NCBI RefSeq assembly: GCF_000745455.1
Contig: NZ_KN050691.1
Location: 1-64,000 of the forward strand
Origin: Mesoaciditoga lauensis cd-1655R = DSM 25116
GTDB taxonomy: Bacteria; Thermotogota; Thermotogae; Mesoaciditogales; Mesoaciditogaceae
Direction: 5' to 3'
Length of the DNA: 64,000 bases
Position numbers and translations under genes: made by a program. Shown here in pieces: positions 5,520 to 63,575 of the stretch (position 1 is the first letter of the stretch; each line of letters opens with the position of its first letter). The notes under the pieces are model-generated. The model was not told where the DNA came from, did not search any database, and saw only the letters and a program-made list of their open reading frames with translations.

Positions 5520-5603
5520 AACCTTTTTGCATTGTTAAGTCCTTATATTTTGCCAAGAATACAAACCTAACAAAGTTTTTTCTTCTTCGCCTTTCCCTCC
5601 CTA

Positions 5604-5701
5604 TTTTTGAAGTTTCTGTCAAAACATATGAAGACGCCATACAAGATGCGAAATAACAGAGTTGGAGGCACAGGATGTGCCGAGAAAGCGAATCTAACAG
5701 T
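5604..5701 (+). repeat. Family B repeat, left half (B1)
   Basis: About 98 bases equal to the left half of the full family B elements at 8370 and 14314: the arm GAAGTTTCTGTCAAAAC, the segment CCATACAAGATGC, the hairpin GGCACAGGATGTGCC and the core GAGAAAGCGAATC. The right half is missing. It is followed head-to-tail by family A copy A1, and the same B-half plus A unit recurs inverted at 42489-43110. Confidence 0.85.
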
Positions 5702-5722
5702 TTTTTCTTCTTCCCCTTTCTC

Positions 5723-5906
5723 TTTATCGAAACCCAAGCCAGCACTTATGAACTCTCCATCTGGAGACTCATAAAAACGAGGTTGGGAAACACACGGATG
5801 TGTTGAGAAAGCGAAGCACTCATGGACGAGTGTCTGAGCGTGCCTCGTTTTTTGGGTCGTAAGATGGGTAAAAGAGTGAATCCGGGCTGGCTTGGGTTTC
5901 GATAAA
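5723..5906 (+). repeat. Family A inverted-repeat element (A1)
   Basis: The ends are perfect 21-base inverted arms (5723-5743 and 5886-5906, containing CGAAACCCAAGCCAGC and its complement). Inside are an imperfect second stem, a nested stem ending in AAAACGAGG / CCTCGTTTT, and two small hairpins: AACACA-CGGA-TGTGTT, and CACTC with GAGTG. The core GAGAAAGCGAAG lies between the two small hairpins. The stretch 5520-6031 contains no gene; it holds B1, A1 and a TATAAT-like box at 5970 before the patatin gene. Confidence 0.9.
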
Positions 5907-6031
5907 TATCTTCAATGATCACCTTTTTCCACCAATCAAAATCGTTACTTTCACCTCCATCAGGAGTTGTATAATTAAAAAAGGATTTGATTCATTAAAA
6001 AGAAGGTGATCTTTCAACGAAAAAGGTAAGC

Positions 6032-7802: not shown

Positions 7803-7968
7803 GCTGCCATTCTTAGCCAAAAACGCTTTCTTTTACTCATGTTGTGCGTGAACATTACGAAAAGTATTACGAGAGACATTACAAAAATTTCTATGAGAAC
7901 ATGTGAGCAACATTTGACAACACTTTTTGATTTAAAACCCGCTTTCCAAGCGGTCAAGGCAATTTTTT

Positions 7969-8140
7969 CGAAGTCCTGTCAGAACGGATTCGCTCTTCTT
8001 TCCGTCTTCCTAATTCACAATATGAGGCACGCTCAGACACTCGTCCATGAATGCTTCGCTTTCTCGGCACGTCCTGTGCCTCTCAACCTCATATTTTGAA
8101 TCCTCAGCTGGCGAGCTCATATGTTCTGACAAGTACTTCG
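7969..8140 (-). repeat. Family A' inverted-repeat element (A2)
   Basis: The arms are CGAAGTCCTGTCAGAAC on the left and GTTCTGACAAGTACTTCG on the right, a different arm sequence from A1 but again nearly complementary to each other. The interior carries the same hairpins and the core in reverse (TTCGCTTTCTC). It is flanked by AAAACCCGCTTTCCAAGCGG on the left, a motif seen beside other copies (8557, 11922, 54470). No gene is supported in 7803-8677: the stretch holds A2, then the composite element 8219-8613. Confidence 0.85.
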
Positions 8141-8218
8141 AGGGTGAGGTTTAATCCCTTTTTGAAATGCTTTGTAACATTGACACACAGGTTGAGTCTT
8201 TTAGGTTCTCTTCATTTT

Positions 8219-8613
8219 GTGTGGGTAAAACATGACAAATCTCTATTCTGTCCTTGTAAGTTTGAACAAAGTCATTCAAAGACACCTTGTTATCAAGTAA
8301 AAGAACAAGCATACTCGAAGCACTGTCAGGACATATGAACTCATTGTTTTTTCGTTTCTATCAACCCTTGAAGCCTTCGTCAAAACATATGAAGACGCCA
8401 TACAAGATGCGAAATAACAGAGTTGGAGGCACAGGACGTGCCGAGAAAGCAAATCTAACAGGATGTTTGTATGCAGCGGGCTCTGTTATGAGCATCTTCT
8501 ATGGATATACGTCTGAATCAGTTTTGACAAGGCTTCAAAAAGATTACACCCACCGCTTGTAAAGCGGTACTAAAATGTCAAAGAATGTGTTATTTAAAAA
8601 ATACTACCCACAC
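8219..8613 (+). repeat. Framed composite element with TIR GTGTGGGTA
   Basis: The stretch is bounded by GTGTGGGTA (8219-8227) and its exact complement TACCCACAC (8605-8613); next inside are ACATGACA and TGTCAAAGAATGTG. Bases 8230-8340 match 11642-11755 closely, and 8540-8595 match 11910-11965, so this and 11633-11983 are the same framed element. Here a left family A' arm (8313-8340) is followed by a complete family B hairpin rather than a family A core, which suggests nested insertion or replacement. Confidence 0.75.
8370..8536 (+). repeat. Family B inverted-repeat element, full length (B2)
   Basis: The outer arms GAAGCCTTCGTCAAAAC (8370-8386) and GTTTTGACAAGGCTTC (8521-8536) are complementary apart from one small bulge. 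Nested inside are ACAAGATGC with GCATCTTCT, AACAGAG with CTCTGTT, and the tip hairpin GGCACAGGA-TGTGCC (loop within) followed by GAGAAAGC. The whole can fold into one long rod with a side branch. Confidence 0.85.
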
Positions 8614-8677
8614 GATCGTGAAGAGATCCGTTTTTTAGTGTATAATATTTTAAAATTGTCGAAAGGAATGTTGAGGC

Positions 8678-11550: not shown

Positions 11551-11632
11551 GTTTTCAATTTATCATTTCTAAAAAAGTTCCACGCTGTAGGGCTTTTTAA
11601 ATTATCTTTATATTTTGTTTCTCATCAGTTTA

Positions 11633-11983
11633 GTGCGGCTAAAACATGCCAATTTTTATTCTGTCTGTTGTTGTAGTTTTGAACAAAATTATCCAAAAAT
11701 ACCTTGTTATCAAGTAAAAGGACAAGCATCCTCGAAGTACTTGTCAGAACATATGAGCTTCCCATCTGAAGATTCATAAATATGAAGTTGAGAGACACAG
11801 GATGTGCCGAGAAAGCGAAGCACTCACGGACGAGTGTCTGAGCGTGCCTCATATTTTGAATTGTAAGATGGAAAGAAGAGCGAATCCGTTCTGACAAGTG
11901 CTTCGAGAAAAATCACCTTTACCGCTTGGAAAGCGGTGGTAAAATGTCAAAGGATGCTATTATTCGAAATATGTTATCCACAC
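11633..11983 (+). repeat. Framed composite element carrying a family A' core (A3 at 11731-11907)
   Basis: The outer ends GTGCGGCTA (11633-11641) and TATCCACAC (11975-11983) are imperfect inverted repeats equivalent to those of 8219-8613. The nested A' core has arms CTCGAAGTACTTGTCAGAAC (11731-11750) and its complement (11888-11907) with one G-T type mismatch. The tip hairpins CACAGGATGTG and CACTC/GAGTG and the core GAGAAAGCGAAG are present. Just outside the right arm is the hairpin CCGCTTGGAAAGCGG (11920-11934). The stretch 11551-12033 holds only this element. Confidence 0.82.
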
Positions 11984-12033
11984 AAATTCACAGAGAACTT
12001 TATATTTTCTCTGCGCGGTGGAACAAGTTTACC

Positions 12034-13907: not shown

Positions 13908-14010
13908 TCCCCCTTTGTCGGCTCCGCCGACACTTCCCCCACAAGCGGGGGCAGATTTCTTATATAAAATGACTCTGCCGATACTCTTCCCCCTCAAACA
14001 GAGGAAGACT
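13908..14010 (+). repeat. Family C GC-rich hairpin repeat (C1)
   Basis: Hairpin TGTCGGCTCCGCCGACA at 13916-13932 is followed by CCCCC-ACAA-GCGGGGG (13937-13952) and a second, weaker CTGCCG...CCCCCTC unit. The same hairpins recur at 63472-63575 and, inverted, at 56328-56382. Bases 13717-13907 upstream hold the chemoreceptor's leader; I see no gene there, only a copy of CAAATTATGCA at 13786, a short motif shared with 54353 and 63439. Confidence 0.75.
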
Positions 14011-14080: not shown

Positions 14081-14103
14081 TCCTCTCTCCCCATTTTTCT
14101 TTT

Positions 14104-14276
14104 CGAAACACTTGCCAACACTTATGAACTCTCCATCTGGAGACTCTAAAAACGAGGTTGAGAAACACATGGATGTGTTGAGAAAGCGAAGCACTCATGG
14201 ATGAGTGTCTGAGCGTGCCTCGTTTTTTGAGTCGTAAGATGGATAAAAGAGTGAATTCGTGCTGGCACGTGTTTCG
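14104..14276 (+). repeat. Family A inverted-repeat element (A4)
   Basis: The arms CGAAACACTTGCCAACAC (14104-14121) and GTGCTGGCACGTGTTTCG (14259-14276) pair with two mismatches; they differ from A1 on both sides in a matched way (ACACTTGCC against ACCCAAGCC). In this copy the internal CACTCAT-GG-ATGAGTG hairpin is perfect. Confidence 0.88.
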
Positions 14277-14313
14277 GATTAATCATGCTTTTCTCTGCCT
14301 TTCCCTCTCCTTT

Positions 14314-14488
14314 TTTTGAAGTTTCTGTCAAAACATATGAAGACACCATACAAGATGCGAAATAACGGAGTTGGAGGCACACGATGTGCCGAGAAAGCGA
14401 ATCTAACAGGATGTTTGTATGCAGCGGGCTCTGTTATGAGCATCTTGTATGGAGATACGTCTGAATCAGTTTTGACAAAACTTCAAAA
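14314..14488 (+). repeat. Family B inverted-repeat element, full length (B3)
   Basis: The outer arms TTTTGAAGTTTCTGTCAAAA (14314-14333) and GTTTTGACAAAACTTCAAAA (14469-14488) pair with a one-base bulge; CCATACAAGATGC and GCATCTTGTATGG are a perfect 13-bp inner stem, better than in B2; AACGGAG and CTCTGTT form the next stem. The tip is GGCACACGATGTGCC with GAGAAAGCGAATC. It ends about 24 bases before the stop codon of the next minus-strand gene. Confidence 0.88.
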
Positions 14489-42446: not shown

Positions 42447-42488
42447 ACGTGCGGGAGTAAGGAATTATGATATGCAAAGAATATTTAT

Positions 42489-42662
42489 CGAAACACATTC
42501 CAGCACGGATTCACTCTTTTACCCATCTTACGACTCTAAAAACGAGGCACGCTCAGACACTCGTCCGTGAGTGTTTCGCTTTCTCAACACATCCGTGTGT
42601 TTCCCAACCTCGTTTTTATGAGTCTCCAGCTGGAGAGCTCATAAGTGCTGGCAGGTGTTTCG
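42489..42662 (-). repeat. Family A inverted-repeat element (A5)
   Basis: The arms CGAAACACATTCCAGCAC and GTGCTGGCAGGTGTTTCG pair with two mismatches; the interior has hairpins as in A1, inverted. Together with B4 it forms an inverted B-half plus A composite. Confidence 0.88.
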
Positions 42663-42684
42663 AAAGGAGAAAGGGTGGAAAAAA

Positions 42685-42784
42685 CCTGTTAGATTCGCTT
42701 TCTGGGCACATCCTGTGCCTCCAACTCTGTTATTTCGCATCTTGTGTGGCGTCTTCATATGTTTTGACAGAAACTTCAAAAAAA
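42685..42784 (-). repeat. Family B half repeat (B4)
   Basis: Inverse of B1: the core GATTCGCTTTCTGGGCACAT and its neighbour, the segment GCATCTTGTGTGG and the arm GTTTTGACAGAAACTTC. Only the left half of the family is present. Confidence 0.85.
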
Positions 42785-42819
42785 AGAGAGAGAAAAGCGA
42801 AGAAAAGCATAATTGATCT

Positions 42820-42991
42820 GAACACTTGCCAGCACGAATTCACTCTTTTATCCATCTTACGACTCAAAAAACGAGGCACGCTCAGACACTCATCCGTGAG
42901 TGCTTCGCTTTCTCAACACATCCGTGTGTTTTCCAACCTCGTTTTTATGAGTCTCCAGATGGTGAGTTCATAAGTGCTGGGGAGTGTTTCG
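42820..42991 (-). repeat. Family A inverted-repeat element (A6)
   Basis: The arms GAACACTTGCCAGCAC and GTGCTGGGGAGTGTTTCG pair imperfectly. With B5 it is a direct tandem copy of the A5-B4 unit, about 36 bases downstream. The stretch 42447-43130 contains no gene, only these two composite units. Confidence 0.85.
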
Positions 42992-43010
42992 AATGGGAGA
43001 GAGGAAAAAC

Positions 43011-43110
43011 TCTGTCAGATTCGCTTTCTCGGCACGTCGTGTGCCTCCAACTCTGTTATTTCACATCTTGTATGGCGTCTTCATATGTTTTGACAGAAAC
43101 TTCAAAAAAA
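43011..43110 (-). repeat. Family B half repeat (B5)
   Basis: As B4, with the hairpin GGCACGTCGTGTGCC in place of GGCACATCCTGTGCC: the stem is kept while loop bases change. It ends directly before the Shine-Dalgarno region of the gene at 43131, so any promoter of that gene lies within or beyond the repeat. Confidence 0.85.
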
Positions 43111-43130
43111 GAGAAAAGAGGCGATGACAA

Positions 43131-54185: not shown

Positions 54186-54694
54186 GTCCATTTAATACCG
54201 AAAAAAAGCAAAATTAGCCAAATATTAGCGTTTAGATTTCTTTAGCATAAAATTACTTATAATATCTTCGAAATACTTAGAATTTTTCATCTACAAACTT
54301 ATAAACAAAATCTAATTTTAAAATAAAGTTGAACTTACATCGCGAGAAAAACTCAAATTATGCAAGCCGAACTAAGAAGTAAAATACTCATCCCGTGCAT
54401 GAAGTTTAAGAAAACAACCGAAAATTTTGTCCTCGTTTTCGAAGGAAATGTCGACGATGCGATAAAATCCGCTTTCCAAGTGGCCAAGGCAATTTTTTCT
54501 AAGTCCTGTCAGAACGGATTCGCTCTTCTTTCCATCTTACAATTCAAATATGAGGCACGCTCAGACACTCGTCCATGAGTGCTTCGCTTTCTCGGCACGT
54601 CCTGTGCCTTTCAATCTTATATTTAGATCCTGAATCAAGTTCAGAATACTCTAGTAAATCAAGAGTGAATTTTTAAGGAATTTTATTTTTTCAA

Positions 54695-55855
54695 TCAAGG
54701 CATCGCCGGGTCAAACTCAACTCCATTCTTCCAAATCACGTACACCAATTCCGCCATTTTCCTCGCTATCGCTACCAGTGCCACCTTTGCGTGTTTTCTC
54801 TTTTTTAACTCCTCGTACTTCTTTCTGTATTTCGGTATGTATCTTATCGCCCTTACTGCCAGATTGTAAAACACCATCCTTAGGTTCTTGTTTCCCTTCT
54901 TAGATATCCCGGACGTCCTGTAACTCTTTCCGCTTTGCTTTATCACCGGGTCCATCCCAAGAAAGGCCACGAATTTCTCCTTCGTAGAGAATCTGCTAAT
55001 CTCACCCACTTCAGACACTATCGTCGCTTCCGTCAGCTTTCCCATCCCTGGTATCGTTGAGATGGGGTTCTTCGGTAAAAAAGATGAGTTTATCCTTTCT
55101 ATCTCCTTTTCCAATTTCTCGGCTGATTCTTTTACCATCTTCAGCTGCGTCACTATAGTTGAGACCATCGTTGAATGCACTCCCAGTTTGTCTGTCAGTC
55201 CTATTGAATCTTCAAGTGATTCAACCACTTCTTTCGCTTTCTTTCTTGACCATCCCTTGAAAGACGAGAGCAGTTCCACCGCTTCTTTCTTGTTGGCAAG
55301 AATCGATTCACGACTCGGATATTTCGAAAGTAGTCCTAGCAGAACAACAGAATTCATCTGGCTGAAGAATTTTACTATTTCTGGCATGTTTACTTTGAGA
55401 ATGTTCCTCAACTGAATTTGCAGTCTGGTTTGTTCTTTTACAATTGAACTCCTGAATCTCACCAGTTTTCTCAAAGCCTGTATCTCCTTGGGCAATTTCG
55501 TGGAAACTACCGCATTGTCTCCGAGAACGAAAAGGGCGAGAGCGAGGTTTTTCGCATCTATTTGGTCTGTTTTCGAATTTGAATACGATTTAAGGAAGTT
55601 TTTGACACTGTATGGATGAAATAGAATCACTTCGTATCCTAAATCGTTTAGAAATTCGTAGATGTTGTTGTCGTAGATACCAGTTGACTCCATCGCTATG
55701 GAGATTTCTTCGTGAAGGTTTTCAAGCTTGGATGCGAACTTTTTGAATCCCTTCCTTGATTGCCTAAAGGTTTGAAGCGTATACTTTTTGGCCTTGGGTT
55801 CGTAGAAAGCAACGTCAAACTTTTCACTCGATATGTCTATGCCAACGTAGATCAT
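54695..55855 (-). CDS. IS110-family transposase (DEDD recombinase)
   Basis: 386 residues, full length. The N-terminal RuvC-like DEDD domain has YVGIDISSEKFDVAF (first D), ISIAMESTGIYDNNIYEFL (E) and SKTDQIDAKNLA (the two final D residues). The C-terminal Tnp20 domain has ISTIPGMGKLTEATIVSEVG then FLGMDPVIKQSGKSYRTSGISKKGNKNLRMVFYNLAV, with the serine of the S-G-K-S/S-G-I region as the likely nucleophile. Active residues and length look intact, so the element may still be mobile. GGAGGGAATGAGTA precedes the start. Confidence 0.95.
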   Translation of the reverse strand: MIYVGIDISSEKFDVAFYEPKAKKYTLQTFRQSRKGFKKFASKLENLHEEISIAMESTGIYDNNIYEFLNDLGYEVILFHPYSVKNFLKSYSNSKTDQIDAKNLALALFVLGDNAVVSTKLPKEIQALRKLVRFRSSIVKEQTRLQIQLRNILKVNMPEIVKFFSQMNSVVLLGLLSKYPSRESILANKKEAVELLSSFKGWSRKKAKEVVESLEDSIGLTDKLGVHSTMVSTIVTQLKMVKESAEKLEKEIERINSSFLPKNPISTIPGMGKLTEATIVSEVGEISRFSTKEKFVAFLGMDPVIKQSGKSYRTSGISKKGNKNLRMVFYNLAVRAIRYIPKYRKKYEELKKRKHAKVALVAIARKMAELVYVIWKNGVEFDPAMP

Positions 55856-56052: not shown

Positions 56053-56227
56053 AATGAGAGTTCATATGTTCTGACAAGTACTTCGAGAGGAGATTTAATT
56101 TCTTTTTGATTAGCTTCGTGCTTTGCAGTCGCTTTTTACGCGTTTTTATCCTCATTTTAGTTTTGATTGTTCGCAATGCTTGGTGTTAATAATGCTTTTT
56201 AACATTGACGATTGACGTACACAATGA

Positions 56228-56382
56228 AGAATTAATATAGGAAAATGAACCCTCCTCGCCAACGTTGTTGGCCCTCTCCTCCCAGTTTTGTGAGGAGAAT
56301 CAGCAGAGTTATTTTCCGAATTAATAAGTCTGCCCCCGCTTGCGAGGGAAGTGGCGGCGAAGCCGGCGTAGGGGGTTTCCAA
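56228..56382 (-). repeat. Family C GC-rich hairpin repeat (C3)
   Basis: The inverse of C1/C2: TCTGCCCCCGCTTGCGAGGG (56329-56348), then GTGGCGGCGAAGCCGGCGTA and GGGGG; a looser hairpin (CCTCCTCGCC...GTGAGGAG) extends to the left. It lies next to the 3' end of the MMPL gene and may act as its transcript end. Confidence 0.65.
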
Positions 56383-63471: not shown

Positions 63472-63575
63472 TTCCCCCTTCGTCGGCTCCGCCGACACTT
63501 TCACTATAAGTGAGGGCAAACTTACTATGTAAAATCGCTACTCTGCTGCCACTTCCCCCGCAAGCGGGGGCAGAA
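63472..63575 (+). repeat. Family C GC-rich hairpin repeat (C2)
   Basis: GTCGGCTCCGCCGAC at 63482-63496, a weaker copy of the second hairpin (TCACTATAAGTGAGGGC), then the perfect CCCCCGC-AA-GCGGGGG at 63555-63570. It begins 55 bases after the ATPase stop codon, behind CTCAAATTATGCAAG (63438). The gap 63418-63713 otherwise holds no gene. Confidence 0.8.

Follow-up and report, generated by a model that had tools for sequence, protein, structure and literature searches.

The window analysed here, the first 64,000 nucleotides of contig NZ_KN050691.1 of Mesoaciditoga lauensis, contains dispersed copies of a palindromic repeat, family A, and of a sister family B with the same layout. Two arm types are distinguished within family A, A1 (CGAAACAC..) and A2 (CGAAGTAC..), while B has other arms (TTGAAGTTTCTGTC..). 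The copies proposed in the initial annotation were all recovered, at or near their positions, by repeat search and covariance search; the count of seven corresponds to four A1 and three A2 copies in the window, which are only a small sample of the genome's total. The A1 copies lie at 5727-5902 (+ strand; arms CGAAACCC..; 197 bits with covariance model R1, of which it is partly a training sequence), 14103-14277 (+, 184 bits), 42488-42663 (-, 177.6 bits) and 42817-42992 (-, 190.5 bits). Two A2 copies are continuous, one at 7967-8141 (-, 165.5 bits) and one, itself a training sequence, at 11732-11906 (+, 194.8 bits). Full B copies were found at 8368-8540 (+) and, immediately 3' of an A1 copy, at 14310-14488 (+); in addition, there are several left halves of B, namely at 5601-5700 (+, 5' of the A1 copy at 5727), 42679-42784 (-) and 43012-43111 (-). 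A separate short repeat family (CCCCCGCTTGCGGGGGAAGTGGCGGC..) occurs at 13908-13970, 56322-56375 and 63473-63535.

The third A2 copy, listed earlier as 54501/56085, is a single element in two parts, both on the minus strand: the core with the right arm at 54497-54627 (R1 match 54497-54676, 94 bits) and the left arm at 56058-56087. A second palindromic repeat lies within its left stem, and the gene of an IS110-family transposase (54695-55855, -; NF033542, 248 bits; PF01548, PF02371) sits between 54627 and 56058. This gene, of a family of RNA-guided transposases, is inserted into the palindromic repeat within the A2 copy; elsewhere in the same genome (C3:75288) an A2 copy carries a similar short palindromic insert without the insertion sequence.

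The genome (2.17 Mb) contains at least 40 A1, at least 40 A2 and at least 23 full B copies. A sample of 761 kb yielded 91 pieces of at least 60 bp, including 70 full-length ones; scaled to the whole genome, this gives about 260 pieces, the sample consisting of large contigs and thus being non-random; we estimate 200 or more copies genome-wide. The copies are dispersed and almost always lie outside genes. No consistent cis-regulatory orientation was seen with a simple ORF caller (both neighbours antisense in 29 cases, both sense in 13), which speaks against cis-regulation of the neighbouring genes. A1/B chains have a common right end. The islands formed by the repeats are mosaic, A2 and B halves being joined within the core; at C2:156602 of this genome, the left half of A2 and the right half of B are joined exactly in the core, which suggests module exchange.

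Each copy type folds as one long stem, with z-scores from -8.8 (the A2 copy at 11732) to -9.5 (the A1 copy at 5727) and none of 200 shuffled sequences folding as well. An outer stem of about 20 pairs leads to an internal loop of tandem GA (UGA/GAA). Beyond this loop, a second stem, bulged by five bases on the 3' side, is separated by a 3x3 internal loop from a third stem, and the core follows. The core begins with hairpin 1 (ACACGGAUGU in A1, ACAGGAYGU in A2 and B), followed by GAGAAAGCGAA and hairpin 2, with an AYGGAY or ACAGGAU loop, and, in A1 and A2, by UGAGCGUGCC; hairpin 2 of A1 and A2 stands on a second tandem-GA motif, GCGAA/UGAGC. The core sequence GAGAAAGCGAA had been identified correctly and is common to A1, A2 and B. 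The element had been called cloverleaf-capable; its form is a long stem with internal loops and two hairpins on top. The loops are ACGGAY and AYGGAY in A1, CAGGAY and AYGGAY in A2, and CAGGAU twice in B. A distance of 27-28 nt, mostly 28, separates their GGA triplets, and the same holds for copies from other genera and families (G042, G038, G043, G102 and G008).

Several long-core variants (L160, L152, L166, L169, L170, L172, L174) have a third hairpin, e.g., TTGCACAGTGTGCAA, followed by CGACCAAAGCGRTAGCTGCGA, which resembles the GAGAAAGCGAA unit. Reading by eye showed long-core copies from G006 and 355-202 to be spanned by open frames (such as ..TTKAIAAMKGTGRAEKAKHSRTSV), as would be expected if the repeat were a stable remnant of a protein-coding segment. 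Such an origin is extremely improbable and was rejected: hairpin 1 of A1 and A2 differs in length by one base, so that the frame is not kept between them while the stem co-varies.

The consensus strand bearing GAGAAAGCGAA folds better than its complement by 9-11 kcal/mol in A1, A2 and B, and is favoured in 133 of 134 copies. In other genomes, diverged hairpins that are intact favour the same, top strand by 5-19 kcal/mol, the exception being L174, whose right half is disrupted. As the lineages share ancestry, this preference is a single trend rather than many independent tests. We read family A from the GAGAAAGCGAA-bearing strand.

The arms of a copy had been reported to change together, and the alignment of copies and RNAalifold bear this out, for the internal hairpins as well. 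In an alignment of 19 copies from several genomes, changes on both sides were found at 30 of 63 pairs; cells with both-side changes numbered 142, against 49 in shuffled alignments and 12-30 in slid structures, and the covariation score was 0.327 versus 0.157, all these counts reflecting differences between lineages, being inflated by related rows, and including B, part of whose stem 3 departs from the common structure. RNAalifold independently predicted 45 pairs, 24 of them with both-side changes. Recent copies behave differently. Within subfamilies the pairs break about neutrally (GU 136 versus AC 132, without strand asymmetry), and A1 shows 11 both-side against 218 single-side changes. From this excess of single-side changes in A1 and the overall parity of GU and AC it follows that individual copies decay about neutrally after insertion; strand-specific RNA selection was sought within subfamilies and was not seen. 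Selection on the structure, proposed earlier, is therefore supported between lineages and not within recent copies, and the pairing seems to be kept only in active lineages, as expected for a mobile family. In recent copies, the conservation of the GGA triplets does not clearly exceed that of the remaining core (P 0.09 in A1 and 0.025 in A2, no excess in B), and one G has been lost from a GGA in 8 of the 23 B copies. In hairpin 2, the Y positions of AYGGAY are CpG sites (ACGGACG) in A1 and A2 genome-wide; both C and T are common there, and all four combinations occur in A1 and in A2.

Palindromes undergo template switching, and at quasi-palindromes this process could copy one arm onto the other, restoring the pairing mechanically and without selection. 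The A1 copy at 5727-5902, which has arm changes on both sides that are absent from the consensus, would fit such a process, as would the scarcity of both-side changes in A1. It explains neither the conserved unpaired loops and asymmetric bulges nor why the short internal hairpins of distant families co-vary, and we regard it as a distinctly unlikely source of the co-variation.

At default thresholds, a search of the window against Rfam found a tRNA and nothing else. When the region 5600-5960 was compared with 4227 families by bit score, the best match was RF01731 (TwoAYGGAY), with 23.2 bits at 5759-5865 (+), i.e., on the expected strand; the A1 copy at 14103 (L061) reached 30.1 bits. These values are below the gathering cut-off of 43 bits; RF01731 reaches 40-45 bits in other Thermotogota, and in the genus g18 (family f7) at least 17 matches in four genomes exceed the cut-off, with many more below it; these g18 copies over the cut-off bridge family A and RF01731. 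One locus (L182) was matched by both R1 and RF01731. A second covariance model, R2, built from 15 RF01731 matches of g18 only, gave 10 matches in 392 kb of the M. lauensis genome, all sense and all at positions of A copies, including those at 14103 (E 5e-4) and 42817, with a best E-value of 6e-5, the E-values of such models being rough. These sense-only matches of an independent model argue for homology. R2 also finds copies in G102.

Of 103 Thermotogota genomes searched with R1, 10 gave matches to the element; three of these belong to family f7 and one to family f11. R1 also assigns scores of up to 40 bits to the antisense hairpins of genuine copies, so that on this model alone only the matches in G042 (62-64 bits) stand, and the connection with G052 and G102, the most remote genomes, is weak. 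Among genome contigs, the exact core pattern occurred only in Mesoaciditoga MAGs and one Thermotogae MAG, and it was not matched in viral contigs. The published TwoAYGGAY family comes from the gut, Gammaproteobacteria and Clostridiales (PMC2864571), whereas family A belongs to Thermotogota.

The initial annotation knew of no named family with this layout, but of the Rfam families RF01731 matches best, and its cut-off is passed by this architecture in g18. In family A and TwoAYGGAY alike, a long stem bears a pair of GGA-loop hairpins, with a short joining segment and tandem-GA stem pairs, the latter a described feature of TwoAYGGAY (PMC4333381). The loops of A1, A2 and B agree with the two terminal AYGGAY-loop hairpins of that family, and the putative tandem-GA pairs of family A lie, as UGA/GAA, at the junction of arm and stem and under hairpin 2. 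Unlike TwoAYGGAY, family A has a long-stem layout with a 3' bulge and hundreds of copies, several of them within transposon shells. We conclude that the resemblance reflects homology or very close convergence, short of formal membership. Family A (A1, A2 and the sister family B) is thus likely to be a divergent, high-copy TwoAYGGAY-type RNA rather than a structure of a new kind. Further palindromic repeats of bacteria, such as REP/BIME and Correia, are likewise intergenic, palindromic and abundant, but family A is longer, has a conserved multi-loop core and is recognized by an RNA covariance model. Among the publications listed for MITEs or repeats of Thermotogae or Marinitoga, none was relevant. 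In g18 (L224, L226, L230), near-identical palindromic stretches of about 20 bases flank the TwoAYGGAY copies on both sides; those of L224 and L230 are terminator-like, as though insertion had duplicated a terminator.

The arms, described earlier as terminal, do not mark where the mobile unit ends; several copies lie within larger shells. The type I shell, with ends GGTTCTC..GAGAAC, is 380-385 bp long with an A2 copy and about 425 bp with a B copy. One of them (11617-11998, +) encloses the A2 copy at 11732 and is bordered by the direct repeat TTTATATTTT (11607-11616 and 11999-12008). Another (8204-8629, +) carries the full B copy at 8368; a duplication was not seen for this copy, and the same B-bearing shell elsewhere (L084) is accompanied by the direct repeat CGAAAACTC. 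Of 12 type I copies, 6 lie between direct repeats of 7-10 bp (counted from 7 bp upward), whereas 132 swapped pairs included 4 such cases; this agrees with a target duplication of about 8 bp. The type II shell, about 360 bp long with ends ACTCAC..TTGTGCGT, carries A2; the one around the A2 copy at 7967-8141 (7835-8197, -; TIR ACTCA..TGTGCGT) has a CTTTT duplication at 7830-7834 and 8198-8202, and exact adjacent 5-bp duplications were found for this type in 3/10 versus 0/90 cases. A third shell, represented by copies in G043 and G039, is 188 bp long, with GTGTCC ends and direct repeats of 9-12 bp (4/4 versus 1/12). As the islands are mosaic, many copies lack their duplications.

The type I end is present in 5 of 10 genomes of the bacterial family. 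In G006 one such end (TGGTTCTCTTCATAATAGTGTGGGTAA, L175) lies beside a PF01610/NF033550 gene, the other end being only partly similar; no other ISL3 transposase occurs in the family's genomes, and the N-terminal part of this one, which has the matching end, is short. The M. lauensis genome has no PF01610 match, and an autonomous ISL3 partner was not found in it. The absence of a transposase, noted earlier, thus holds for the copies themselves, but a matching ISL3-family gene exists in a related genome and an IS110-family gene splits one copy. Type I shells resemble ISL3-family MITEs in their GGTTCTC..GAGAAC ends, in AT-rich duplications of about 8 bp, and in the end common with the G006 element, but differ from them in that the genome has no ISL3 transposase and the internal hairpin also occurs in other shells. 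MITE-like elements and hosts of a structured RNA had been offered as alternatives; the repeats appear to be both, and a TwoAYGGAY-type hairpin is probably borne by mobile elements. The link of a TwoAYGGAY-type RNA to several transposon shells is new.

No convincing promoter-like site was found 5' of the scanned A1 and A2 copies in the window, and promoters predicted on the top strand were no better than those on the other strand. In G038, the sequence TTGACA-N18-TAATAT lies 5' of the hairpin, on the top strand only, at L219, L224 and L226, directly upstream in the last two. Expression by read-through transcripts is possible; gene orientation gives no support for it. The repeats could be ordinary MITEs whose hairpin works as DNA only, in single-stranded or cruciform form, and RF01731 would then itself be a mobile DNA hairpin mistaken for RNA. 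The target duplications in several shells would agree with this, and so would the dispersed, mostly intergenic positions without cis-regulatory orientation, the neutral decay of recent copies without strand asymmetry, and the lack of promoters in the window copies. However, one core is found in at least three shells with different ends, therefore it is the ends, and not the hairpin, that suit the transposases. Moreover, the constant GGA spacing, the tandem-GA loops and the bias toward folding of one strand persist across families, and some G038 copies have the upstream promoter-like sequence on the top strand only. We consider a DNA-only role unlikely, and infer that the hairpin of family A fairly probably acts as RNA.

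The original description of TwoAYGGAY regarded it as a probable RNA that is probably not cis-regulatory; from motifs alone, Gardner and Eldai later predicted that it would bind CsrA (PMC4333381). CsrA binds by preference to GGA presented in a hairpin loop; its SELEX consensus is RUACARGGAUGU, and its dimer bridges two sites 10-63 nt apart (PMC7652899). The two GGA loops of family A fit this bridging geometry. In the M. lauensis genome csrA directly follows a gene that we take to be fliW, and the csrA product retains the N-terminal MLVLRRK and the LREELY segment, whose residues are presumably important in CsrA. Against CsrA binding speak the lack of promoters before the window copies, the GGA triplets not clearly standing out in recent copies, the B copies with a damaged GGA, and the 87% complete genome G006, where csrA was not found alongside 25 R1 matches. 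CsrA-sequestering sRNAs of the CsrB/RsmY type likewise have GGA in hairpin loops spaced within the bridging range, but family A has two sites instead of many, a long double-stranded stem and dispersed mobile copies, and its binding of CsrA is putative. We propose, as a plausible though tentative hypothesis suggested by the loop motifs, that the paired GGA hairpins may bind a CsrA dimer.

The best explanation is that non-autonomous MITE-like transposons of more than one kind carry and disperse a TwoAYGGAY-type hairpin, which probably acts as RNA; its paired GGA hairpins may bind a CsrA dimer, in which case its transcripts would act as CsrA decoys or CsrA-bound elements. The computed basis for the hairpin and its mobility comprises the common architecture, stem co-variation among lineages, the two-way link with RF01731 by way of a second Thermotogota family, target duplications at three different shells and the ISL3-type ends of the type I shell. 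It is conceivable, but rather doubtful, that the TwoAYGGAY-type RNAs, at any rate those of Thermotogota, are a conserved cargo of selfish DNA, a two-site CsrA decoy which moves between unrelated shells and has reached hundreds of copies, the element itself tuning the global regulator of its host.

TwoAYGGAY is an orphan bacterial RNA family without a known function, which is here tied to mobile DNA; the hundreds of mobile copies in duplication-marked shells offer a new explanation for its scattered distribution. As culturable Thermotogota are available, the proposed role as a CsrA decoy is testable. Should the RNA bind CsrA, a global regulator would have a decoy that travels on a mobile element; should it not, RF01731 may have to be reinterpreted as DNA.
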